DNA of 25,713 nt from Chloroflexota bacterium. GTDB lineage: Bacteria > Chloroflexota > Chloroflexia > QHBQ01 > JADMIH01. The notes under the pieces are model-generated. The model was given only the letters and a program-made list of their open reading frames with translations, had not been told where the DNA came from and searched no databases. The stretch spans positions 1 through 25,713 of the forward strand of contig JADMIH010000040.1 in NCBI GenBank assembly GCA_015478675.1. Reading direction: 5' to 3'. The stretch's first letter is position 1; the number at the start of each line of letters is the position of its first letter. Made by a program: the position numbers and the translations under genes. Below are positions 8,699-25,682 of this stretch, piece after piece.

Positions 8699-9274
8699 GT
8701 GGCGCAACCGGACGACGAGCGTTCATGGGTCGAAAAAGCACGCACAGGGGATGCCGAGGCGATAGGCGTACTCTATGAGCGCTATTTTGAACGCATATAT
8801 CGCTATGTCTATCTCAAGGTAAGCGACCCCGCAGAAGCCGAGGACATCACAGAGCAGGTGTTCCTGAAGGTAATAGAGGCTATCAGCGGCTTTCAGTGGC
8901 AGGGGTCGTCCTTCGCATCGTGGCTTTACCGGATAGCCCACAACCTGGTTGTGGATACTCTCCGCCAGCATTCCCGCCGGCCCCAGGTCCCTTTAGAGCC
9001 GCTGGGTGATGCGTTGCCCTCGGAGGGCAAAGATCCCCACTTCTACGCCGAGCAGAGCGATTTTCGAGACCATTTACGTGACGCGCTGACCGAGCTAACT
9101 GACCTGCAAGCTCAAGTGATCAACCTTAAGTTCGGAGCGGGCCTCAGCAACGCAGAAGTAGCAGATCTTTTGCAACGCTCGGAAGGCGCGGTGAAAGCAT
9201 TACAGTACAGCGCCTTGCAGAACCTGCACAAACTGATGATGTTGAGAGGATACACTTCTCAGAAGGACGCCTGA
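8699..9274 (+). CDS. ECF-type RNA polymerase sigma factor
   Basis: A 191-residue sigma-70-family ECF factor. Region 2 spans about residues 20-90, with LYERYFERIYRYVYLKVSD, AEAEDITEQVFLKV and SSFASWLYRIAHNLVVDTLR. Region 4 spans about 125-180, with ELTDLQAQVINLKF and the GLSNAEVADLLQRSEGAVKAL helix-turn-helix. There is no sigma 1 or 3 domain. The start is GTG, with a GAGGAG-like ribosome site eight bases before it. The next gene on the same strand encodes a membrane-anchored DUF5667-type protein, the arrangement commonly seen for an ECF factor and its cognate (anti-)sigma partner. Confidence 0.92.
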   Translation: MAQPDDERSWVEKARTGDAEAIGVLYERYFERIYRYVYLKVSDPAEAEDITEQVFLKVIEAISGFQWQGSSFASWLYRIAHNLVVDTLRQHSRRPQVPLEPLGDALPSEGKDPHFYAEQSDFRDHLRDALTELTDLQAQVINLKFGAGLSNAEVADLLQRSEGAVKALQYSALQNLHKLMMLRGYTSQKDA

Positions 9275-9332
9275 AGTAGACGCCTATTGCGTACGTAAGA
9301 GATAAGGCCATGCTGCCCATAACCTTATGCCC

Positions 9333-9360
9333 TGAGCATTACGCAGTGAGCATTACGCAG
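9333..9360 (+). repeat. Two tandem copies of a 14-bp unit
   Basis: TGAGCATTACGCAG occurs twice in direct succession (9333-9346, 9347-9360) in the 121-base gap between the sigma-factor gene and its partner gene. It could be a duplicated regulatory site or a chance slippage event. Confidence 0.6.
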
Positions 9361-9395
9361 TTGTGGATAATAGAGGAAATTAGGTAGAGTTAATA

Positions 9396-11369
9396 GTGGC
9401 AAGAGTAACAATACAAGAAGCACTTGATTACTGTCTGGCTAACCCGGAGGGCCTCAGCGCGGAAGAATTGCTGAAGAGGTTCCCCGAGTACCGTGACGAG
9501 CTTCAGCCGCTGCTTGCCATCAGCGCTGACCTTGCGAGTATCACACCCCCGCCCGTCCCTGATGACCGGCGCGCCTTGATGAAGCAGCGGCTCATGCGGG
9601 CCGCCTCAGCGAGGCAGGTTACAGCGTCTGTGCCTGTTACTCCCCTTCGCTCACGATCTGCAAAAGCAGGGCAGGTGCCAACACCCTGGCTCGTCGCCTG
9701 GCTGCGCCGCCCGGCTTTTGCTCTTGCTGCGGTTGTGATATTGCTTCTCGGCTCCGTCTGGTCGGCCTCTGCCAACTCTCTGCCCGACAGCCCGTTCTAC
9801 AGCGCCAAGCTCACCTCAGAAAATCTGCTGCTCAACTTCGTAAGTAGTGCGGCTGACAAGGTGCGACGGCACATGGACCTTGCTAATGTTCGCCTCTCAG
9901 ACCTGCAAACGATGCAGAACCGGAACAAACTGGCCGAAGCTGGCCCCGCATTCACCAACTACAGCTACCACTTGAGCAATGGTGTCGCCATCTGGAACAG
10001 CACAACGGGCGATACACGCACGGAGCTCGCCAGGATACTCTATATATCAAGTGTCGCGGGCCAGTACACTTTTAGCGCTCTCAGAAGCACTCTCTCCAAC
10101 TCCTCTACCCAGCTACAGGACGATTACAACCAGACCGCAAGAGCGCTGAACGACCTCAACACAAATACTGCACAGGTGCTCGAAGCCGCCCGCGTAGACC
10201 CTGCTACGCTTTTGCAGTCGGGCGCACCTGAAGTTGCCGATGTGGCCGGCCGCGCCCGCATAGACGCACGAAATCTACTTACCCCTGTACCGGCAGTTGA
10301 GCTTTTCGCGCCCAACCAGAGCGGCACCACGACTGCTGTCGCAAGGGAAAGTGTTACCTCTACAGTTCAGGCAACACCCGAACAGACCTCCAGTGTGCTT
10401 GCGGCTACTTCATCAGTTGTGGCCTCTACAGTGCTACCAGGAACACCGACAGCCCCCACAAGCGTGACGCCAGCCGCAACAAACAGCCCAGCCGCTACTT
10501 CCACCTTGCCCGGGGTGAACGCCACCGCTACGCCTGCCTCCGGCAAGCCTACTCCGCAGGCAAGCCCTTCTCGCAGAGCCACCCCCGGAGCCACGCCGCC
10601 ACGCCCCGGCGCTACAAGCACACGACCTGCCGCGCCAAGCGCCACTGCGCGGCCACCCTCACGTACACCTACGGTCTATCTCGTGCCCACAAATACGCCC
10701 CTACCAGCGAGCACAAGCATTCCGACAGCTACGCCCGCGTCCACGTCCACGTCCACGTCCACACTCATCACGGCAACTGTGTCGAGCGCAAGTAGCTGTG
10801 GTCTCACTGTACAGAGCGTGCTGACCTCTTGCAATGCTCAAGGCTGTTTGAACTGGATTGCCATTGTGGAAAATACCGGCTTCGACCGCATCAAAGCGAC
10901 ATGGATAGCCGAATTGCAGATTAAAAGCGGGAGTGGCAACTTCCACGCGGTGGCTTCCGATCAGAAGAAAGTGAACGTCGCACTGGGCGCTAACAGTATA
11001 TCAGGCAATTTTTGCGTTACTCTCCCCGCCGACACCACCAGCGTCAGGGTCAAGCTTACTATTACTGCCGACGACAACTCTTGCTCTGTAGCTGCTACTT
11101 CGAGCGCAACTGCGCCATGTCTGGCGGCAACACCCACGCCTGTGCCTCGCCCCACGCGCGAGCCTACGCAACAGCCCACTCTCCCGCCCAACGCAACAGA
11201 TGAACCCCGGCCAACCCGCGCGCCGCGTGCCACCCCTGAACCACGCAGAACGCAAGGCCCCGAAGAAACACGAGAACCTGACGAGAATCCTGATCCCTCT
11301 CCCCGCGAAACCAGGCAACCCAGACCGACCAGCGAGCCTCAGCCTTTTTCTGCGCCAACAGGCTTGTAG
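9396..11369 (+). CDS. DUF5667-type membrane protein with Pro/Thr-rich stalks, putative sigma-factor partner
   Basis: A 657-residue, mosaic envelope protein. Residues 1-75 are a cytoplasmic helical domain (EALDYCLANPEGLSAEELL, FPEYRDELQPLL) of the kind that precedes DUF5667 and may bind the sigma factor. A single membrane segment spans about 106-125. Residues 127-290 match the DUF5667 region (LPDSPFYSAKLTSENLLL, VRRHMDLANVRLSDLQTM). Next comes a long Thr/Ala/Pro/Ser stalk (about 310-465), a cysteine-containing beta domain (about 466-570, starting CGLTVQSVLTSC) and a Pro/Arg/Glu-rich tail to the end. The outside part could span the wall and be heavily O-glycosylated; that is inference. The start is a GTG 121 bases downstream of the sigma gene. 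The role as an anti-sigma factor is inferred from context. Confidence 0.75.
   Translation: MARVTIQEALDYCLANPEGLSAEELLKRFPEYRDELQPLLAISADLASITPPPVPDDRRALMKQRLMRAASARQVTASVPVTPLRSRSAKAGQVPTPWLVAWLRRPAFALAAVVILLLGSVWSASANSLPDSPFYSAKLTSENLLLNFVSSAADKVRRHMDLANVRLSDLQTMQNRNKLAEAGPAFTNYSYHLSNGVAIWNSTTGDTRTELARILYISSVAGQYTFSALRSTLSNSSTQLQDDYNQTARALNDLNTNTAQVLEAARVDPATLLQSGAPEVADVAGRARIDARNLLTPVPAVELFAPNQSGTTTAVARESVTSTVQATPEQTSSVLAATSSVVASTVLPGTPTAPTSVTPAATNSPAATSTLPGVNATATPASGKPTPQASPSRRATPGATPPRPGATSTRPAAPSATARPPSRTPTVYLVPTNTPLPASTSIPTATPASTSTSTSTLITATVSSASSCGLTVQSVLTSCNAQGCLNWIAIVENTGFDRIKATWIAELQIKSGSGNFHAVASDQKKVNVALGANSISGNFCVTLPADTTSVRVKLTITADDNSCSVAATSSATAPCLAATPTPVPRPTREPTQQPTLPPNATDEPRPTRAPRATPEPRRTQGPEETREPDENPDPSPRETRQPRPTSEPQPFSAPTGL
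10739..10762 (+). repeat. Hexamer tandem repeat (GTCCAC)x4 inside the stalk
   Basis: Four perfect copies of GTCCAC encode an alternating Ser-Thr run. Six-base units keep the frame, so copy-number change would only alter stalk length. Confidence 0.8.
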
Positions 11370-16301: not shown

Positions 16302-16448
16302 GTAAGCGTTCAGATTTTAGGGTGGAGCAATCTTGAAGGAGTAGCTGTGGAGGCGTACCCTCACGCACCCTCACCCCATGCCCCTCTCCCTTCATGGGAG
16401 AGGGGCATGGGGTGAGGGTGCACATATACCTCTACTCTGAACGCTTAC
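16302..16448 (+). mobile_element. MITE-like repeat, copy 2 (147 bp) with 26-bp perfect stem
   Basis: 13-bp perfect terminal inverted repeats GTAAGCGTTCAGA (16302-16314) and TCTGAACGCTTAC (16436-16448). Inside, arms 16365-16390 and 16396-16421 form a perfect 26-bp G/C-rich stem with a 5-base loop. The left half matches copy 1 (2492-2638) in reverse orientation. It has no coding capacity and no clear target duplication. The strong hairpin could also end transcripts from either side. Confidence 0.8.
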
Positions 16449-16995: not shown

Positions 16996-19230
16996 TTAAT
17001 CTTTCACTACGAGGGGATGCAATTCCTCCATGAGAGCCTCGGAAGCATGGTCCATCCTCAAACCCTCCACGGCGCGAATAAAGCGCGGCACATCAAACTG
17101 CTCGACCACAGCGCGGCGTCGCAACTCCACGGGAACGAGGTGGTGGTATGCCCCGAGAGCCAGCATCGGCTCGTAAGCGCGGTAGCGATCGCGAAGATAG
17201 CGCTCAACCTGTATAGCCGTAAATGCGGGGATGGAGCGAGGTTCGTCAGTGAACAGCAAGCATAACCCGACCTGGGAAGTCGGCTCTACGGGCAAGGTAT
17301 AAGCCAGCAGATCGAGGATCGCCCGCCCGTAGACGTCTCCGAGCCAGTGGAACCATAGCCACCTGCTACCAGTTGGCACCAGGTCCGGAACCAGTGGTGC
17401 CGTCCCGGGAGAAAGCCCAAGCTGGGACGGAAATCGCCTGGCAAGGTCGTAACTCAGGGCCTGCCTTGTCGAGAGATAGCGCAAAGGCGCTGAGTAAGCC
17501 GCGTTTGCGCTTTCTCCCAGCCTGTTGTCTCGGTTGACCGAAACCCACAGCGACTCCCCATCGTACCATTCGATGTTCAGGGGTCGGCCTTCCAGCGTCA
17601 GTATGTCACCATCAAACCACTGGCGATCTATGCTTGCAACCACACGCTGGCTGTCGCGGTCGCGGATCTTGATGGGCGCGCCTCCCATCTCTATATTGCT
17701 GTGCAGGCTCAACGTGCTGTACTCAGCCGCTTGCATATCGACCAATCGGTTCAGGCCCTCGCCCGCACGCCATTCCCCCGGCCGGCCACTCGTCAGGTAT
17801 CCCAGGGCTTGCAGAGTGCCCAAAAGAAGGCGCAAGTCCTCGGTTGAAAGCATCCCCTCGAACAAGCGCGACAGGGGATTGAGGCGTACAGCGCCTGTGG
17901 GGCTTTGCTTGAGTAAGCTGAATATCTGTTGGACGGCAACCGATGGGCGGAAGCCGGACGTTGCCTTTGCGTCTTGCTCTTCTGGTACCTCGGTGGTCGG
18001 TGGTCGGTGGTCGATGGTTGGTCGTCCCCCAGCGGCCTCGAGCAGCGCGCCGAATGTAATGCGCTCCAGCGGCGTGCGGTAGAAGCAGGCCACGCGCGAG
18101 ACTTTCCTGCGGCGATTGGCGCGTCCCACTCGCTGCACGAACGAGTGGGTGCTGCCGGGCGGGCCGATGAGCAACGTCACATCTATGTTGCCCACGTCTA
18201 TGCCAAGCTCAAGAGTGCTGCTGGCGAAGCAGAGGGCCGCTTCGGCCTGCGCGAACCCCTGCTCGATCTCGCGCCGCCTCTCCCAACCCAGGTTGGAGTA
18301 GTGCACGTACACAGCGTCGCCGAAGGGTGAACCCCCACTCCGAGCGTTGCGTATGGCGGCGGCATACCTCTCAACCTCGGCGCGTGTGTTGCAAAAAGCC
18401 AGGGCCTTTCTCCAGCCACGTGAGCGGAAAGTGCTCAGGTAGTCGAGCAACGCTCCGACCGTGTCTGCTTCAAGAGCAATTAGCTCGGCCTCAATCGCTC
18501 TTGCGCTCGTCAGATTCCCCTGGCTTCCTTGTTCGCCGGGGGTTTGCAGCCGTGTCATCTGTATTACTCTTGCGTTCTCGAAAAATCGCCCGGCAACGTC
18601 AGCCGGTTCCGAGAGCGTCGCCGACAAAGCTGCCAATTGCACGTGTGCATCGGTTGCGTCATCGGCATTCGCTGCATAAGCACGCATCTCACGCAGGCGA
18701 TTGAGCAGAACACGCAACTGGTCGCCACGTACCGTGCTGTCGAAGGTGTGCAATTCGTCCAGCACCACCGCGCACACTCCCGCCAGTAACCTCGTCTGGT
18801 TTGACATGAGAGCGTCCAGCGACTCGGGTGTGGTTAGCAGAAGGTCGGCGGGGCGCTTAGGGTCAAAGGTATTGAAGTCGTGGGTCTTGACGGCGCATGA
18901 CACTCGCAGCGTCTCCAAAGGCATACGGAGGCGTACCCACAGGTCACTGATCAAGGCTCGCGTGGGCAGAAGGTAAAGGATCGTCAAGCCGGGAGTAACG
19001 CGCTCTGCCGGAAGATAGCGCTCGATCAGGGGGGCAAGGGCGGCTTCCGTCTTGCCGCTGGCGGTCGGCGCGCACAGGATGACGTTGTCTCCCGCCAGTA
19101 CAGGGGGAATGGCGGCAAGCTGGGCAGCAGTGAAGTTGCCATACCTGCGGAAGAAAGCTCCCCACGTGCGCGGCAAGGCAGCTTTTAGCGCGTGGGGCCT
19201 TACTTTGTTTAGGTGGGCTTGTTGACGCAA
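16996..19230 (-). CDS. Superfamily 2 DEAD/DEAH-type helicase, Lhr/BrxHI-like
   Basis: A 744-residue SF2 helicase. Motifs in order: Q-like region FTAAQLAAIP (33-42), Walker A APTASGKT (54-61), TTPESLD (133-139), motif II DELH (158-161), motif III SATL (203-206), FASSTLELGIDVG (335-347) and motif VI QRVGRANRR (366-374). The second half (about 425-744) is a winged-helix-like and Lhr-type C-terminal region. The family includes BrxHI of BREX type 2 systems and Lhr-like DNA helicases; ATP-driven translocation on DNA or hybrids is expected. It is the last gene of the seven-gene operon, 27 bases after the GIY-YIG gene. The frame begins at a TTG (19230) with a poor ribosome site, so the start is uncertain. 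A heptamer repeat interrupts the linker after motif VI. Confidence 0.85.
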   Translation of the reverse strand: MRQQAHLNKVRPHALKAALPRTWGAFFRRYGNFTAAQLAAIPPVLAGDNVILCAPTASGKTEAALAPLIERYLPAERVTPGLTILYLLPTRALISDLWVRLRMPLETLRVSCAVKTHDFNTFDPKRPADLLLTTPESLDALMSNQTRLLAGVCAVVLDELHTFDSTVRGDQLRVLLNRLREMRAYAANADDATDAHVQLAALSATLSEPADVAGRFFENARVIQMTRLQTPGEQGSQGNLTSARAIEAELIALEADTVGALLDYLSTFRSRGWRKALAFCNTRAEVERYAAAIRNARSGGSPFGDAVYVHYSNLGWERRREIEQGFAQAEAALCFASSTLELGIDVGNIDVTLLIGPPGSTHSFVQRVGRANRRRKVSRVACFYRTPLERITFGALLEAAGGRPTIDHRPPTTEVPEEQDAKATSGFRPSVAVQQIFSLLKQSPTGAVRLNPLSRLFEGMLSTEDLRLLLGTLQALGYLTSGRPGEWRAGEGLNRLVDMQAAEYSTLSLHSNIEMGGAPIKIRDRDSQRVVASIDRQWFDGDILTLEGRPLNIEWYDGESLWVSVNRDNRLGESANAAYSAPLRYLSTRQALSYDLARRFPSQLGLSPGTAPLVPDLVPTGSRWLWFHWLGDVYGRAILDLLAYTLPVEPTSQVGLCLLFTDEPRSIPAFTAIQVERYLRDRYRAYEPMLALGAYHHLVPVELRRRAVVEQFDVPRFIRAVEGLRMDHASEALMEELHPLVVKD
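17992..18012 (-). repeat. Three perfect copies of a 7-bp repeat inside the helicase gene
   Basis: GGTGGTC is repeated three times on the plus strand, followed by a degenerate fourth copy (18013-18019). It encodes part of the DHRPPTTEVP linker, about residues 405-414 of the helicase, just after the RecA2 core. Seven is not a multiple of three, so gain or loss of one unit would shift the frame. Confidence 0.8.
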
Positions 19231-19257
19231 CTCTATGCTTCAACTTTAGTGCTATGG

Positions 19258-19743
19258 CTAGCGAGTGAGATTAGCAAAGGGGCTGCCATAGACACTCTCG
19301 AACTCACGGAACAATTCAAGTTCCAGGTCTCTAGCAGTTTGTGTTGGCTCTGTTAATTTCCAAGCTATCACGAAATCTTGTGATTGCTCCACCTGCCACA
19401 CATAGTGGCCACCCCGGTGACCAATCACGTGACCCTGACCGAAGCGGATGAACTGTCGCATTCTCTGATACAGCCCTTTGGCTCCACTACCTTTTCCTAT
19501 GTAGATGACATGAGCATTGCTTACCCACCTCTCTACAAGCTCGTCCTTGCTAACCGTAGGGTCGCCATTGAACCAACCGCCAGGGTTCACGTCCAGGAAT
19601 AGGGCTTTACTGTCATGTTCTCGCAACACCACATACACACCTGCTTTCTGTGGCACATCTCTTAGTTTTCCTTGCCCCAATGCTTGAATGGGCACAAAGC
19701 TTGTGAAACCTGCTTCCTCCAATGTGCTCCTCTTGAAGTCCAT
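19258..19743 (-). CDS. GIY-YIG-like nuclease-fold protein
   Basis: A 161-residue protein with a GIY-YIG-like signature: GVY (35-37) in PQKAGVYVVLR, YIG (81-83) in HVIYIGKG, an arginine-rich helix (LYQRMRQFIRF) and a GHRGGHYVWQ block. The C-terminal helix holds an acidic stretch (LELELFREFESVYG) ending in PFAN, where the catalytic glutamate and asparagine of this superfamily usually lie. The spacing between GIY and YIG is longer than in UvrC or homing enzymes, so catalytic activity is plausible but unproven. The ATG at 19743 has a GAGGTGGGAA ribosome site. It lies between hicB and the helicase with gaps of 17 and 27 bases, hence the same operon, and could supply the nuclease of the system. Confidence 0.65.
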   Translation of the reverse strand: MDFKRSTLEEAGFTSFVPIQALGQGKLRDVPQKAGVYVVLREHDSKALFLDVNPGGWFNGDPTVSKDELVERWVSNAHVIYIGKGSGAKGLYQRMRQFIRFGQGHVIGHRGGHYVWQVEQSQDFVIAWKLTEPTQTARDLELELFREFESVYGSPFANLTR

Positions 19744-19760
19744 TTCCCACCTCTACACAT

Positions 19761-20006
19761 CTAAGCCATTGCCTTTGACGCGAACTTGGTTTCGTCAACC
19801 TCTACGAAGCCTGCCTGTGTGGCGCTTACCGAAGGCAACGGTTGACCGCGCTCAAGCGCTACCTCAAAGTAGAGTTCGAGTGCTTCCTGCATGTTCTCCA
19901 ATGTATCGGCAACGGTGTCACCAACAGTGCCCACGCCCGGTACGTCCGGAGCATAAGCAGAATACCCGTCGGGCGTCTTTTCTATTACCACCAGATATCT
20001 GTACAT
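19761..20006 (-). CDS. hicB: HicB-family antitoxin
   Basis: An 81-residue HicB antitoxin. The partial RNase-H-like fold is visible as YRYLVVIEKTPDGYSAYAPDVPGVGTVGDT followed in sequence by the VADTLENMQEALELYFEVAL helix. The C-terminal part is short (GFVEVD), with no obvious DNA-binding domain. It pairs with the HicA toxin encoded just upstream (32-base gap) and neutralises it by binding. A perfect AGGAGG lies five bases before the ATG, so antitoxin translation is likely far stronger than that of the toxin, which starts at GTG; this is the balance expected of a TA pair. Confidence 0.9.
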   Translation of the reverse strand: MYRYLVVIEKTPDGYSAYAPDVPGVGTVGDTVADTLENMQEALELYFEVALERGQPLPSVSATQAGFVEVDETKFASKAMA

Positions 20007-20038
20007 ATCCGCCTCCTGAATGTTGGCAACCCTTCGGG

Positions 20039-20224
20039 CTATTTGCCAAGGTCAGCAATCTCAAGTAATGCCTTCAATGTCCCCGTTGCTAACTCTTTAT
20101 TGTGCCTGGGGATAACTAACTGGCCGGATTTCGTGGGGTGGATGTAAACGTCGTGCTTCTTGCCATGCCGATAGAGCACCCAACCGTCTGCTTTCACTTT
20201 GCGTACCAACTCACTCGCTTTCAC
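20039..20224 (-). CDS. hicA: HicA-family toxin (mRNA interferase)
   Basis: A 61-residue HicA toxin with a dsRNA-binding-like fold. KASELVRKVKADGWVLYRHGKKHDVY contains the expected catalytic histidine of the G-x-x-H motif (read in two parts around residue 22), followed by HPTKSGQLVIPRHNKEL and a C-terminal helix. HicA cleaves mRNA and stops translation unless bound by HicB. The GTG start lies three bases after the TAA of the ATPase gene, so it is translationally coupled to it. That makes the toxin an internal gene of the ATPase-helicase operon rather than a separately inserted module with its own promoter. Confidence 0.9.
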   Translation of the reverse strand: MKASELVRKVKADGWVLYRHGKKHDVYIHPTKSGQLVIPRHNKELATGTLKALLEIADLGK

Positions 20225-20227
20225 CCA

Positions 20228-21694
20228 TTATACCTTTAACCCCCGCTTCAATTCCTCCAACATATCGCCCCGCTGGTAGTCGGGATGAAGGTATAGGAGG
20301 TCGCACACGGTGACGGCGGTGCGGATCAGTTGGCGCAGGTTGATGCGGTGCTGCGAGAGGGCGCGTGACAGCACCCCAGGCACGTTGGAGGCCACCTCAG
20401 TGTAGCGTTCAGGTGTGTCGGATGTGGAAGACCCATTGTAAGTATAATCATAGGCCAGCGCGTGGTAGCGCTGAAGTGTGCCAAAGAACTCTCGAATGTC
20501 CTTCTCGATGAAGCGGTCATCCAGCCGCACGATCTGGGAGGGGGCCAGCCACGAGCCGACGGGCATCCGGTCTGCGCTCTCTGTCAGCGCGAACAAAAAG
20601 AGAAGATGCGGCTCGGAGACGTAGCTTACAGGGTATTCGGAGCGGGGATTGTCCGGGATTGTGCGAGCATCGATGCGCCCGTTGTTCAGGCCGAGCGCCG
20701 ATACAACCATCGCCTTGAAGAAGGCGTCGGCTCGCTCCCGCTGCGTGGTGCGCAGCAAAGAATAGTGCTCCGACTCGTCTATTAGCACGGCAAGCCCGCT
20801 GTATCCGAGCAATGTCGCCAGCGTGCTGATGCCTGTGAGCATGTAGCTGTACTGGCGTGCTGTCTCGCCCGTCACATACATGGGCGGGGGCTTCTTCAGA
20901 CAGCTTCTCATCTCTGCCTGTGGTTTAGCCTGTCCGCTCAACCACTGCACGATCTGGTCGAACGCCAGTTGGCTGGCGCAATCCTGCAAGGCTAGCAGGG
21001 CCGACGCCAGGGGACAGTTCTTCGGTTCGCGTGGGCAGGCCTCAACCAACCACGCTATCGCTGAGGGATTTTCAAGAGCCCTGTTGATCAAGGGAAGAAG
21101 GCCGCGCTCCTCTGTGTCTGGGTAGCGTAGCGACGTTACGAGCGCCTCGTAAATCTTGTGCGCCTTGCCGGGGGGCACTTCCACAAGGTCGAGGCTGGCT
21201 GAGGCGACCAGGAAGTTCTCGCGCAGGCCGCGCCGCGCGGCAAGCTCGATGAAGTGGCTCTTGCCGAAGCCATAGTCACCGATCACGGCAAGAGCGTCTC
21301 CGCTGCGCTCGCGGCTCCTGGCGAGCGCCCTCTCCAGCGTCACCTGCTCGGCTTCCAGGCCGATGGTGAGGGTCTCTGCGTCCTGCACGGGCACCACGCC
21401 GACACGCAGCGCTTCAAGTGTCTGCTGGGCGCGGAACTGGTCACCTTCCAGCACCATAGTGCGCGCAGTCAGAGGATGTGCCTTCACCGCGGGCGCGTGG
21501 GGCGACTCGTCGAACTCCCTTGAAGGCAAGCGAAAGCGCCTGCCCGATTCGAACTGCACTTCCCACTCGAACCCGCCCATGAATGTTCTCAGGAGCGTGC
21601 CGGGGCCGAACTGTGGGTGATGCACCTGTTCCATTTCTTTGGCCTCTACAGGGACCACAGGGTCAATATGGTCCATATGGTCGTGGTAATCCAA
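20228..21694 (-). CDS. BREX-type (DUF2791) P-loop ATPase with N-terminal SH3/Tudor-like domain
   Basis: A 488-residue ATPase. Residues about 22-62 (VHHPQFGPGTLLRTFMGG, then WEVQFESGRRFRLPSREF) look like the small beta-barrel domain seen at the C-terminus of UvrD/PcrA helicases and in DUF3553 proteins. The P-loop core follows with Walker A GDYGFGKSH (139-147) and Walker B LAVLIDESEH (D306-E307), matching the BrxC/BrxD (PF10923-type) ATP-binding family. The C-terminal half resembles AAA+ lid and winged-helix regions. The frame begins at TTG with GGAGG seven bases upstream; an ATG at codon 7 is the alternative. It is 15 bases after the first ATPase gene. The two ATPases probably form a hetero-oligomer that works with the helicase; that is inference. 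Confidence 0.8.
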   Translation of the reverse strand: MDYHDHMDHIDPVVPVEAKEMEQVHHPQFGPGTLLRTFMGGFEWEVQFESGRRFRLPSREFDESPHAPAVKAHPLTARTMVLEGDQFRAQQTLEALRVGVVPVQDAETLTIGLEAEQVTLERALARSRERSGDALAVIGDYGFGKSHFIELAARRGLRENFLVASASLDLVEVPPGKAHKIYEALVTSLRYPDTEERGLLPLINRALENPSAIAWLVEACPREPKNCPLASALLALQDCASQLAFDQIVQWLSGQAKPQAEMRSCLKKPPPMYVTGETARQYSYMLTGISTLATLLGYSGLAVLIDESEHYSLLRTTQRERADAFFKAMVVSALGLNNGRIDARTIPDNPRSEYPVSYVSEPHLLFLFALTESADRMPVGSWLAPSQIVRLDDRFIEKDIREFFGTLQRYHALAYDYTYNGSSTSDTPERYTEVASNVPGVLSRALSQHRINLRQLIRTAVTVCDLLYLHPDYQRGDMLEELKRGLKV

Positions 21695-21709
21695 TACAGG
21701 GCCTCCGAC

Positions 21710-23008
21710 CTAATATGGACGCTGCTGCTCGTCGGCCAGCAGTTCGAGGGCGGTACTCTCTCCTCTGATGCGGGCGTCGGCGTATTCGAGGGCGATGCCG
21801 GTCTGCCCCTCCTCTTTCTGCCGGAACCACTCTGTAACGAGCGCCTTCACGAAGAGGCGGCGGTGGCTGACCGCCAGGTAAGAGTTGACTGCTGCCTCCG
21901 CCAGCACGCGGATGTTCTGGCTCTGTATCTCTCCATCAAGCTTCACGTCGTATGCCACTTCGAAGATGGGCATGAGGCGATAGCCGATCTGCACGAGTAG
22001 CTCCTCGTCGGGCATGTCGAGGTGGTCCAGGTCGATCTGGGGGCTAAAAGGGTTGGTGCGAGAGAAGTAATCGGCGGCCTGCACTCTCTGTTGTAGAGCT
22101 GGGTACTTGGGCACCACGGTGTGCAGGAAATCGGGCGGCACCGCGTACATGAATAGCGCGCCCGGCAGGTCCTCCCGGCAGCGGTCGATCACCTCGCGGA
22201 GGTTGTCGGTGGCGGTCTTCTCGGCCTTGCCGCCGATTGAGAGCATCCGGTCGCCTTCGTCGAATAGGAGGGTGAGCCCCGTGTAGCCCAGGGCGCGCAC
22301 CGCCTGGCACAGGGAGCGGAGCATCTTGAAGGCGTTGTTGCGGTTGATCTTCTCGGTCACGCCGATCGAGCGCAGATCACGCATATCCTCTGGGGTGACT
22401 TCCTCGCCGTGCAGCCAGCGTTCAAGCGAATCTACGCGGCGCTCTTGCCCTCTGAACAGGGCGGTGAAATACCCCTGCACGGCTTTGTGGAAACTGAGAC
22501 TATCTATGTGAGTTGAGTCAATGGTGTTCAGGAAGGCGCGCACTTCGGGGACCTCTTCCGCACCCTCGTCCTGCAAATCGAGACCGTGCGGGGCGATTAT
22601 CCGCCGGAGGGTGCCCTCCAGGAAGCGTCCCAACCCGTATTCATCTTCCGCGAGGCTGCCCAGCTCGTGCCATACTATGGAGGATGCCACCGCCCCGTAC
22701 ACCCGGCGCTGATCGTCGTAGGGGCTCTCTTTGGGGCTGAGGTCCACTTTGCTCACGGCGAAGTCGCGCTGCCAGGCGCGGTCACGCACGCAGTAGAGGA
22801 AGTGCGATTTGCCGCTGCCGTAGTCTCCCACCACCAGCTTGAACACGGCCCCGCCGTCTGCCAGGTATGAGCCGAGGTAGTGCGTATCGATGGCGTTGAG
22901 GAGCGATTCGTTGCCCACGTTGTAGTAGCTCACACCCCTGGGCATGGGGGTACCCGACTGCCCCAACGTCTCGATGATCTGGCGGGCCAGGCGCGGCTCA
23001 GGCAACAT
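21710..23008 (-). CDS. BrxD-like (DUF2791) P-loop ATPase
   Basis: A 432-residue ATPase of the BREX ATP-binding (BrxC/BrxD, PF10923-type) family, about the length of BrxD. Walker A is GDYGSGKSH (61-69) and Walker B is LTLLFDEGDR (D250-E251); between them lies the VSKVDLSPKESPYDD segment typical of the family. An arginine-rich sensor-like region is followed by a probable winged-helix C-terminus (about 360-432). The ATG at 23008 has AAGGAGT eight bases upstream. It is the second gene of the operon, 13 bases after the coiled-coil gene, and shares only modest similarity with the next ATPase outside the nucleotide site. BrxD co-occurs with BrxHI-type helicases in BREX type 2, which supports a joint function here. 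Confidence 0.82.
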   Translation of the reverse strand: MLPEPRLARQIIETLGQSGTPMPRGVSYYNVGNESLLNAIDTHYLGSYLADGGAVFKLVVGDYGSGKSHFLYCVRDRAWQRDFAVSKVDLSPKESPYDDQRRVYGAVASSIVWHELGSLAEDEYGLGRFLEGTLRRIIAPHGLDLQDEGAEEVPEVRAFLNTIDSTHIDSLSFHKAVQGYFTALFRGQERRVDSLERWLHGEEVTPEDMRDLRSIGVTEKINRNNAFKMLRSLCQAVRALGYTGLTLLFDEGDRMLSIGGKAEKTATDNLREVIDRCREDLPGALFMYAVPPDFLHTVVPKYPALQQRVQAADYFSRTNPFSPQIDLDHLDMPDEELLVQIGYRLMPIFEVAYDVKLDGEIQSQNIRVLAEAAVNSYLAVSHRRLFVKALVTEWFRQKEEGQTGIALEYADARIRGESTALELLADEQQRPY

Positions 23009-23021
23009 AATTCAACACTCC

Positions 23022-24071
23022 TTATTCCCTCGCGAACTCCACGTCCGCGATATACCGGCCATCGTAAGGTGTGTCCCCCTCAACGATCCACATGCTCTTG
23101 GTAGCATAGTCGGTCTGGGACTTGACGGCGCTGTGGGCCTTCACGATGTGACGATCGTAGGCCAGGTGCAGGCGGCTGGCGAACTCGTGGAAGTCGTACT
23201 CGAATTGCGCCCGCAGATAATCGGTGAATGTGTGCTTGCTTGGCTGGCTGGCGAAGGCTCTACCCTGGCGCAGCAGCACCATCTCTATATAGCAGTCCAC
23301 GATATTCACCCGAGTTCCCTGTGCCTGCGTGCCTCGTTTGCGTCGGGCGGTCTGGTAAGCCTCGTGGAATTGCGCAATCCAGGCTTTCCCATCCTGATTT
23401 CGACCCATGATGGCCTTTGATGCGCTCGCGTAGGCTTTCATTGCGCCTTCTACCGTGATGGGAGCATGTGGCACCACAATGTCTTTGCCGTAACGCAGCA
23501 CTATGAAGCGTTTGGCGAAGTTGGCCTCAAGCTCGAAGCGCCCGATCTCGAAGCGGGGTGCGCGACCGCCTATCTGTATCCCCTGCTCCGACAGGGCCGA
23601 GCGGAGCCTCCGGCCAAATTCATCGCCGAGCACGCGCTGGGCCACATCCAGTTCCTCACGTAGGGGCGGAAGCGTTTCGCGCACGTTCTCTTGTTTTGCC
23701 AATTCCAGTGCGGCAAGAGCTTTGTCCAGCCGCACTACGTCCACAGGCTCCGTGCGTAGAGCCGACGACGCATCTTTCAGCGCGCCGGTGAGGGTGGCCA
23801 GGCTCTTGAGCTCGCGGCGTATGTCGGGTAGCAGCGGATCCACTGCCTCTTCCTTCAACCTGCTTTGAGAGAACACTTCTTGAGCACCGTTCAGGCCGTC
23901 GGGGGAGACGCCTGACCTCAGCATGCTAAGGTCTCGCAGCGCCTTTTGTGCCTTGCTGTGGGCGTTTGTGACCCCCTTGAAAGCCGCCTGCAATCCGGCA
24001 ACAGCTTTCTGCTGCTGAGTATATGTCTCGCGCAGCGTATCAAGTTGGGTATTCAGAGTTTCGTCAGGCAT
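23022..24071 (-). CDS. Coiled-coil protein of unknown family, first gene of the ATPase-helicase operon
   Basis: A protein of about 349 residues that I do not recognise. The first ~155 residues are helical with coiled-coil character (QQQKAVAGLQAAFKGVTNA, LPDIRRELKSLATLTGALKD, ELDVAQRVLGDEF). The rest is a globular domain containing the FEIGRFELEANFAKRF and RGTQAQGTRVNIVDCYIEMV blocks and a C-terminal FEYDFHEFASRLHLAYDRH stretch. No signal peptide, membrane segment or catalytic motif is evident. I prefer ATG 24071, with AGGTGA nine bases upstream, over the GTG at 24080. As the leading gene it may be the target-recognition or scaffold component of the system; that is inference from position only. 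Confidence 0.7.
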   Translation of the reverse strand: MPDETLNTQLDTLRETYTQQQKAVAGLQAAFKGVTNAHSKAQKALRDLSMLRSGVSPDGLNGAQEVFSQSRLKEEAVDPLLPDIRRELKSLATLTGALKDASSALRTEPVDVVRLDKALAALELAKQENVRETLPPLREELDVAQRVLGDEFGRRLRSALSEQGIQIGGRAPRFEIGRFELEANFAKRFIVLRYGKDIVVPHAPITVEGAMKAYASASKAIMGRNQDGKAWIAQFHEAYQTARRKRGTQAQGTRVNIVDCYIEMVLLRQGRAFASQPSKHTFTDYLRAQFEYDFHEFASRLHLAYDRHIVKAHSAVKSQTDYATKSMWIVEGDTPYDGRYIADVEFARE

Positions 24072-24243
24072 GATGATCACTCACCTAGTCAATAAACATA
24101 CTTGGACGCAACCAGCAGATATTTCACCTTTTTCGTTATCTTGGGCGCGAGACCGGCTTGCTACAAGTTGAGGGCCAAACCAAAGGTCACAACGGAGATC
24201 CTGTCCTGTTCCTCCGCTTTCCGCAAAAGTGACCTGAGCTGTG

Positions 24244-24498
24244 TCAGTAGTGAAATCGCGCCTGTAGCAAATCGATCCTATCCGCGCGCACCAGGTAGAG
24301 CTCCTGAGTGATTCGCCTCGACCAGACGTTTGGGCCCAAATACTTCAACGGCTCAGGCTTCCCTATGCCTCCGAAAGGGTCTCGCAACACAGCCTCCACC
24401 AGGTTTAGCACTCTCAACGCTGTGCGGCGATAGCTTTCTACCCAGTGGCGCAGGTCTTCTCGAAACTCCGACTGAAAAAGCGCCTGGCGCTCACTCAC
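24244..24498 (-). pseudogene. YoeB-like toxin, internally deleted
   Basis: From a GTG at 24498 the frame reads a Txe/YoeB-type mRNA interferase: FREDLRHWVESYRRTALRV, then DPFGGIGKPEPLKYLGPNVW and SRRITQE, ending ARFHY. Between ITQE and the next strand, the usual HRLVY box is missing about four residues, including the arginine that corresponds to catalytic R65 of E. coli YoeB; the glutamate of KPEPLK and the final His-Tyr remain. A four-codon in-frame loss would leave an open frame but probably a dead toxin. It follows an eroded yefM by 49 bases, so the pair is a relic. Confidence 0.75.
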
Positions 24499-24547
24499 GT
24501 TCCGGTGCGTCCTGCTCCGAAGTATCTCGCATTGATTTCGGCTCGGA

Positions 24548-24750
24548 TTACAGCCCCATCTCTTTGCGAAGGTCGTCCACCGTGCCCGGCTTCTCGCTCC
24601 CATCGAGGGCACGACTCAAGGCTGCCAGCAGCCTTTGCCGCCTTTGCACCTGCGCACGATGATAACTTCGCGGTCATCGACAACCCTATCAAAATAGGAT
24701 GCCAGATTCTCCCGGGCCTCTGTGTAAGTAGTTCCTACTGCCAACTTCAC
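24548..24750 (-). pseudogene. YefM/Phd-like antitoxin, frameshifted by an internal deletion
   Basis: From a GTG at 24750 the first frame gives TYTEARENLASYFDRVVDD followed by REVIIVRR, the N-terminus of a YefM antitoxin, and then runs to an early stop. The C-terminal part (LAALSRALDGSEKPGTVDDL, then RKEMGL) appears in another frame directly after. The segment normally linking them (RGGE...VAL...LLET) is absent, and the total length (203 bases) is not a multiple of three. A deletion of roughly 55-75 bases is the simplest explanation. Without its antitoxin, only an inactive yoeB could be kept, which agrees with the toxin lesion. Confidence 0.75.
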
Positions 24751-24761
24751 ACCCCTGCTGC

Positions 24762-24800
24762 ATAATCACCACGTAGAGCCTTCCTGTACGTGGTGATTAT
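24762..24800. repeat. 14-bp perfect inverted repeat upstream of the yefM remnant
   Basis: ATAATCACCACGTA (24762-24775) and TACGTGGTGATTAT (24787-24800) flank an 11-base spacer. It sits 11 bases before the yefM start, where an autoregulatory operator would be. It has no T-run. An end-structure of the neighbouring IS630-type element is the alternative. Confidence 0.7.
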
Positions 24801-24885
24801 AGCTCAAAGGCACCATTCAGTCCAGCGCTAGTGCAGGTTCGACAAACCAGTTGTGTAAACAGTGTTGAAGTTGGTAAACCTGGGC

Positions 24886-25682
24886 ATGAGACCTCCTATG
24901 TTTGTACGCACGCTGAGAGCTGAGGAGCAGTCACATTTACAGGCTGGACTGCGCTGTTCTGAGGCATTCACCATGCGTCGTTGCCAAATACTGTTAGCAT
25001 CTAGCCCAGGCCAACGAGCCTCCGAGATTGCCGGCAACCTCGGTTGTGCGACCCAGACTGTGCGTAATGCCATCCATGACTTCCATGCCGAGGGGTTGCA
25101 ATGCTTGTCTAAAGAAACCTCACGGCCCAAGAGTGTCCCGCCTCTGTTCGACCAATCGAGGTGTGAGGCTCTACGTGAGTTGCTACACCGCTCGCCGCGT
25201 TACTTCGACAAGCAAAGCAGCATCTGGAACCTGGAATCAGTGACCGCTGTGACCTATGATATGAGCAAAAGCTCACTTCATGGCTCGTCAGTAGCCAAAC
25301 CATACGTAATGCCCCTGGGAGTTAGTTTAGACGTTGGCTGCAAACGCGCTAAACATTGGATCACCAGTCCTGATCCCGATTATGCAGCTAAAAAACGTTT
25401 GCAGTGGCTGACTGACCAAAACAGCAATCGCCCTGGTTGGGTAATCGGCTATCAGGACGAAAGCTGTTGGAGCAGGCTTAAGCCACCAACCACAGCTACA
25501 TAGTTGGGTAGCGCATGATGAGCAGGCATGATGAGCAGTTAGGCTTGCACGAGTTAGAGCGCAATAAAGCTGATGAGGCAGACCCCGCTCCTATGGCATT
25601 GTGTTGCTACGGGATGCTGCGGGCAGACAACGGGCACCATGGTCAAATGCTCCTACTTAGTCCTACAGCCGCAGTTATATAA
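24886..25682 (+). pseudogene. IS630-family transposase, multiply frameshifted and 3'-truncated
   Basis: The start MRPPMFVRTLRAEEQ and the helix-turn-helix region (AFTMRRCQILLAS, RASEIAGNLGCATQTVRNAI) are those of IS630-type transposases, and KRAKHWITSPDPDYA and WVIGYQDESCWSRL mark the approach to the DDE domain. Family blocks change frame: LVSSQTIRNA lies in frame 3 around 25284, QPQLHSWVAHDEQ in frame 2 from 25487 and LGLHELERNKADEADPAP in frame 3 after 25538. The last switch follows a 13-bp tandem duplication (CATGATGAGCAG at 25514 and 25527). The remaining DDE residues are absent, so the element cannot be active by itself. Confidence 0.8.

Follow-up and report, generated by a model that had tools for sequence, protein, structure and literature searches.

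The stretch of DNA analysed here (the window; 25,713 nucleotides of contig JADMIH010000040.1, assembly GCA_015478675.1, from a Chloroflexota bacterium) carries an operon that consists of four core genes, here called A, B, C and G, together with cargo, namely a HicAB toxin-antitoxin pair and a GIY-YIG-like gene. The A-B-C-G unit is built of parts of the kind found in the bacteriophage exclusion (BREX) and Shango systems while missing defining features of both, and on balance it probably constitutes a stand-alone anti-invader system, in which an ORC/Cdc6-like complex would drive a helicase on invading DNA. The literature searched held no account of this unit, which is not proof of absence.

The window operon combines four core genes with cargo

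All seven reading frames of the operon lie on the minus strand (16996..24080) with intergenic gaps of 13, 15, 3, 32, 17 and 27 bases, confirming the one-strand layout with gaps of 3-32 bases described in an earlier, sequence-only reading of this DNA. From the 5′ end of the operon, they encode A (23022..24080), helical in its N-terminal part and predicted to have an ORC1-like winged helix in its C-terminal domain; B (21710..23008), a first BrxD-type AAA+ ATPase (432 residues, PF10923 (BrxC_BrxD), E-value 2.5e-44); C (20228..21694), a second BrxD-type AAA+ ATPase (488 residues, PF10923, 2e-26); the HicA toxin (20039..20224; 61 residues, PF07927, 1.4e-14); the HicB antitoxin (19761..20006; 81 residues, PF15919, 1.1e-10); the GIY-YIG-like protein (19258..19743; 161 residues), recognised by motif positions; and G (16996..19230), a superfamily 2 (SF2) helicase of the BrxHI/SngC/Lhr kind (744 residues, DEAD 7.4e-29 and Helicase_C 2.7e-12). 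These Pfam matches bear out the two DUF2791-type ATPases, the HicA, the HicB and the helicase named in that reading.

BrxD and BrxHI are said to occur together in BREX type 2 with PglW/X/Y/Z. A Pfam scan of 12 non-core window frames (all five of at least 300 residues and seven shorter ones, most shorter frames lying outside the scan) found no PglZ, DNA methyltransferase, kinase or Lon-like gene, in agreement with the earlier reading, and likewise no PglX, BrxC or PglW. The proposal that the unit stands alone, lacks the BREX core and pairs two BrxD-type ATPases with a neighbouring BrxHI-type helicase is upheld, and its parts co-occur elsewhere.

The order A-B-C-G is conserved in Chloroflexota

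Searching the genome collection with a profile of A, we found 11 loci, whose titles (Anaerolineae, Chloroflexi, Oscillochloris, Herpetosiphonaceae) all belong to Chloroflexota, where we take Oscillochloris and Herpetosiphonaceae to be placed. In whole-genome profile searches, 5 of 400 genomes from the phylum and 38 of 396 from the class proved to encode A; the centre genome is included in both counts, and several of the other genomes were already among the 11 loci. The total is 51 loci including the window (L numbers below denote loci), with L050 and L081 being contig ends of a single genome. These genome searches covered Chloroflexota, and other phyla were covered by plasmid and phage collections.

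In these homologous neighbourhoods, A, B, C and G do co-occur. We scored a step as present when the following gene began no more than 5 kb away on the same strand. By this measure, B follows A in 47/47 loci with room (the three remaining A loci have a contig end within 1.3 kb), C follows B in 43/43 (five contig ends within 1.45 kb) and G follows C in 31/33 (ten contig ends within 2.1 kb). In relatives free of cargo, the BrxD and BrxHI homologues adjoin, as they do in BREX. The four genes are co-inherited: their pairwise distances track one another (Spearman 0.86-0.92), part of which shared ancestry alone would explain. Little recurs outside the core: in the 15 loci compared, a single family reached four frames, spread over three loci, and thirteen others were pairs, of which L002 and L003 share four.

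The motif residues of B, C and G are conserved as well. B is the most conserved component, with 156 positions at least 95% conserved across 48 rows, Walker A and B residues included, and the Walker residues of C are invariant or nearly so in the alignment; both proteins thus have the intact Walker A and B motifs of an AAA+ ATPase in conserved columns. The helicase motif residues of G are conserved across 31 rows. For the small N-terminal domain of C, the best solved match is the UvrD C-terminal domain, at non-significant E-values of 0.066 and 0.048.

Protein A has a predicted winged helix

The likely start of A is the ATG at residue 4, where the 15 other alignment rows begin, giving a protein of 349 residues, the length used in the sequence-only reading. 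A Pfam scan assigned it no significant family. Its long N-terminus is helical, and its C-terminal part (residues about 229-352) was modelled like an ORC1-type winged helix; the closest solved folds are indeed ORC1-type winged helices, at a middling Z of 7.7. We consider it likely from this modelling that the C-terminus of A is an ORC-type winged helix, which may contact DNA. The suggestion of the sequence-only reading that the coiled-coil protein recognises the target thereby gains partial support from the helical N-terminus and the predicted fold, tempered by the middling Z. Pfam detected no TerB family in A, and profile comparison with five TerB-annotated proteins gave a probability of 0.3%.

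The unit is present in three or more phyla, once directly behind BREX

A tblastn search of plasmids with B led to conjugative plasmid 3 of the cyanobacterium Aulosira laxa NIES-50 (AP018310.1), where a BREX set is directly followed by the four-gene unit (L084 1-10545 and L089 3238-15245). On one strand, this plasmid encodes BrxA (1.8e-91), BrxB (3.6e-77), BrxC, PglX, a protein annotated as an alkaline phosphatase in the position of PglZ, BrxD (2.1e-166) and BrxHI (6.5e-280), and 172 bases past the BREX BrxHI follow A (279 residues), B, C and G. The Chloroflexota profiles match these four at 7.7e-13, 5.9e-48, 2.4e-27 and 9.8e-125, respectively (E-values for a few hundred frames), and match the BREX proteins of the same plasmid at 4.5e-29 (BrxD, B profile) and 1.7e-76 (helicase, G profile). 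With the Aulosira A and B as queries, we found A-B-C-G on the 27-kb plasmid pDESTI.01 of Desulfomonile tiedjei (NC_018026.1, 10215-15641), the annotation of which also includes AbiE-type toxin-antitoxin genes and a PD-(D/E)XK protein. With the unit present in Aulosira behind a separate BREX set and again in Desulfomonile, three phyla at the least carry it, and it is not a piece of BREX.

B, C and G branch apart from their BREX and Shango counterparts

Comparison with PADLOC models gave BrxD (5.9e-36) and SngB (1.3e-26) for B, BrxD (1.4e-20) for C, and BrxHI (5.9e-62) and SngC (1.5e-54) for G, both of the latter spanning the helicase core. As the ATPases match BrxD and SngB and the helicase BrxHI and SngC, Shango appears to be about as close a relative of the window operon as BREX. 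Yet G, despite its SngC match, falls outside the Shango branch of the helicase tree. This tree, containing 20 of the 31 core helicases together with two plasmid, four BREX, five Shango and one Deinococcus sequences, placed the 22 core rows on one side of a branch with a Shimodaira-Hasegawa-like approximate likelihood ratio test (SH-aLRT) support of 100 (Shango 96, BREX 94). The ATPase tree, with 16/48 B and 16/42 C rows, two plasmid rows of each, five BrxD, five SngB and one Deinococcus, resolved four groups (SH-aLRT C 95, B 91, BrxD 99, SngB 100). Both trees are of a quick kind, unrooted and without bootstraps, with the B (91) and BrxHI (94) values unstarred and L019 a long row, and the Shango labels come from annotation only (TerB protein, ATP-binding protein, helicase) in five plasmid loci. 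Within these bounds, the trees separate G, B and C from their BREX and Shango counterparts, and because the four ATPase groups stay apart with the plasmid rows included, the split between B and C seems to predate the phyla sampled.

The unit resembles each of three known systems in part. Like Shango (SngABC), it is a short operon of an adaptor protein, BrxD-like ATPase and SF2 helicase, without nuclease or methyltransferase; Shango, however, has a TerB protein where the unit has A, and one SngB ATPase where the unit has two, B and C, in every locus with room, and it occupies its own branches in both trees. With the BrxD-BrxHI pair of BREX (type 2 and related) it shares a BrxHI-type helicase placed immediately after a BrxD-type ATPase, but it has a second ATPase and A, and lacks PglZ, PglX, BrxC and PglW; moreover, the two systems coexist as neighbours in Aulosira. 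In PMC12839542, BrxD is placed among the ORC-Cdc6 AAA+ ATPases; that paper proposes that it loads or activates BrxHI, and calls its role uncharacterized. The predicted ORC1-like winged helix of A extends the likeness to ORC/Cdc6 loaders, from which the unit differs in that its winged helix would sit on a separate protein, its partner is an SF2 helicase rather than MCM, and no origin function is known.

Two further plasmid loci contain related genes. On a Deinococcus plasmid (L087 2011-9945, NZ_CP034187.1), two hypothetical proteins of 852 and 452 residues, rich in long charged, helical-looking stretches, precede a BrxD-like ATPase, which is accompanied by a helicase and an HNH gene. This locus may be one more stand-alone variant, and in the trees its ATPase and helicase lie closest to the BREX sequences. 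On a Cetobacterium plasmid (L096 2795-10794, NZ_CP143326.1), a Shango-like unit lies between type I restriction genes and a HicAB pair situated further on.

Exchangeable cargo sits between the core genes

In the window, HicA and HicB are neighbours 32 bases apart, as expected of a HicAB toxin-antitoxin pair. No relative of this HicA was found at E<=0.01 in the other 53 of the 54 core records, and HicB has one other among the 54, in the insert of L048. The GIY-YIG-like gene is confined to the window (1/54 records). Its 161-residue product has no Pfam or PADLOC match, but when it is aligned with three relatives from plasmids (40-45% identity), 4/4 sequences keep the GVY, YIG, Arg, Glu and Asn residues, which we take to be the GIY-YIG signature. 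Relatives occur in 26 plasmid records, from other phyla, and in one phage record, and in none of the three neighbourhoods examined are core genes annotated. Conserved co-occurrence, put forward as a check for both the coiled-coil protein and the GIY-YIG gene, therefore holds for A and fails for the latter, which at one record in 54 is not a general cutting subunit. HicAB and the GIY-YIG-like gene are cargo, an insert of the window locus, and not core.

Across the loci, gaps of more than 400 bases occur between A and B in 0/47, between B and C in 6/43 and between C and G in 11/31, affecting 14 loci in all. Outside the window these and smaller gaps hold 42 frames, of which 10 were dropped (short, antisense, or a piece of A) and 32 kept; two L064 frames, lying behind C where the contig ends before G, were added to give 34. 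Thirty of these were scanned with Pfam, leaving out four short ones of L068, L077 and L080. Judged from family names, 19/30 scanned genes are of toxin-antitoxin, restriction or effector type (17/28 without L064), three have an uncounted family (2-phosphosulpholactate phosphatase, helix-turn-helix, DUF2442) and eight have none. At least one gene of these types is present in 11/14 insert loci, with the window HicAB counted; the inserts of L074 and L077 showed none, and the single L068 frame was outside the scan.

The 19 genes include HicB (L048), HigB (L052), YoeB on the opposite strand (L054), and DUF4258 with an MqsA-like protein, the latter below the cut-off (L080). Methyltransferases occur in L066 (N4/N6, with a Phd antitoxin) and L072 (C5), AAA_15 in L078 and Uma2 in L009. 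CARF domains normally respond to CRISPR second messengers, and a Card1-type CARF protein lies between C and G in L062 (5773-6759, minus strand). L064 carries AAA_15 with PIN, and L082 (2728-9189) carries two AAA_21 and two DUF4276 genes, forming two pairs, together with a HEPN and nucleotidyltransferase pair. OLD-like ATPases and a HEPN-MNT module are therefore among the cargo. The make-up of these last two inserts is similar to that of the backup effectors that PMC12839542 describes inside BREX loci, where HEPN-MNT pairs are reported alongside OLD-ABC accompanied by PIN or another nuclease.

As a control, we hand-picked 20 of 45 listed genes that flank the core most closely on the outside; they come from 13 loci, of which L006, L053, L057 and L063 have no insert. 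Only one of the 20, an HNH protein beside L048, is of toxin-antitoxin, restriction or effector type, compared to 19/30 inside (Fisher p 2.7e-5; 6.8e-5 with 17/28); 15 belong to other families, mostly metabolic or unassigned, and four have no family. The upstream YoeB neighbour of the window, outside this control, would be a second flank case. In a wider flank set of 94 genes (93 of at least 140 residues from L001-L011 and one of L018) out of 119 gathered, 32 PADLOC families matched at E<=1e-8, including PsyrT (2.3e-122), DpdF (6.1e-63) and mad3 (5.3e-44), although these matches cannot be assigned to single genes and some of the models are helicases or enzymes with housekeeping relatives. None of BREX PglZ, PglX, BrxC or PglW is among the 25 of these 32 families listed, and the 25 of 148 Pfam families listed for the set are mostly metabolic. 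Enrichment of defence-type genes is thus weak around the core and strong inside it, where the B|C and C|G junctions take up exchangeable cargo of toxin-antitoxin, restriction and effector types.

A proposed helicase-loading mechanism and its alternatives

Given a BrxD-BrxHI-like pairing with two ATPases and a likely winged-helix protein, the simplest reading is that A, B and C form a loader that puts G on DNA. By analogy with ORC/Cdc6, B and C, as anciently split AAA+ paralogues, would assemble with A into a clamp or loader, the winged helix of A would contact DNA, and the complex would place or activate G on the invader's DNA, along which G would translocate or which it would unwind, so that invader replication or transcription fails. 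Because the core includes no nuclease or methyltransferase, the invader would be stopped mechanically or with the help of host nucleases, and the cargo may serve as backup effectors or addiction modules. A defence role is suggested by the patchy presence of the unit, its carriage on plasmids, its BREX neighbour and its toxin, restriction and effector cargo. More tentatively, and at somewhat less than an even chance, the unit could represent a third and still nameless form of ATPase-helicase immunity, next to Shango and the BrxD-BrxHI pair of BREX: modification-free, with a hetero-ATPase loader and a separate winged-helix subunit that would single out invader DNA through its state, such as ongoing replication or transcription, and fire the SF2 helicase at it, the operon gaps being a docking site for exchangeable backup effectors.

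Several observations weigh against a defence system of this kind and counsel caution. The strong conservation of B is unusual in a front-line sensor, the core has no nuclease to explain invader destruction, and the nearest flank genes are mostly metabolic rather than those of classic defence islands. Insert classes were set with the genes already in view, and the choice of flank genes was made by hand. The winged-helix match of A is middling, and Foldseek gave no match at E<=0.001 for either model. Furthermore, G is absent 3′ of C in L051 and L081 despite room, and may be absent in L018, one of the ten loci at contig ends, where the 2 kb past C hold a frame without a Pfam or PADLOC family.

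Some of these points would also suit a chromosomal or plasmid DNA-maintenance machine (for repair, replication restart or a transposition-like process), in which an ORC-like loader and helicase serve the host or plasmid: B is very highly conserved, nuclease and modification enzyme are missing from the core, the nearest flanks are metabolic, and the unit is plasmid-borne in Aulosira and Desulfomonile. We nevertheless hold this to be unlikely, as such a machine fits poorly with a patchy distribution (38 of the 396 genomes searched in one class), with the lack outside the core of any neighbour family common to more than four frames, with toxin-antitoxin and restriction-type cargo, and with the position behind BREX in Aulosira. 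Less probable again is that the unit is a form of Shango in which A replaces the TerB protein and the ATPase has been duplicated, mechanism and system being the same in substance; the SngC and SngB matches of G and B and the protein-ATPase-helicase order, alike in the five annotation-labelled Shango plasmid loci, favour it, and it is opposed by the lack of TerB similarity in A, the two ATPases with a split older than the phyla sampled, and the separate Shango branches in both trees. The seven-gene system originally proposed, with the GIY-YIG protein as nuclease and HicAB as a fixed part, has the shared strand and short gaps of all seven genes in its favour; it is contradicted by 30 other complete A-B-C-G loci without a GIY-YIG gene, by the restriction of that gene and of this HicA to one record in 54, and by the GIY-YIG relatives on plasmids of other phyla in neighbourhoods without annotated core genes, and is highly improbable.

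Shango, the characterised ATPase-helicase system closest to this unit, is made up of a TerB protein, a single ATPase and a helicase; it causes a modest drop in the plating of several Pseudomonas phages (PMC10250203), and a review (PMC12926258) lists its mechanism as unknown. BrxD and BrxHI are among the less understood parts of BREX. If the A-B-C-G unit works as an anti-invader system, a four-gene relative without PglZ, methyltransferase or TerB would isolate the ATPase-helicase step and render the loader idea directly testable. The cargo sites are also a place to seek new effectors, among the Pfam-less proteins beside toxins and methyltransferases.

Other features of the window

On the 5′ side of the operon (24244-25503), we observed a YoeB-type toxin frame and a frame partially matching an IS630 transposase, below the cut-off. 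On the 3′ side, a near-perfect inverted repeat with a short loop, spotted by eye, lies behind the helicase (16365-16421), and beyond about 0.9 kb follow lysylphosphatidylglycerol-synthase-like, glycosyltransferase and polysaccharide genes. Further away (8699-11369), an extracytoplasmic function (ECF) sigma factor is followed by a DUF5667 protein, perhaps a sigma/anti-sigma pair.

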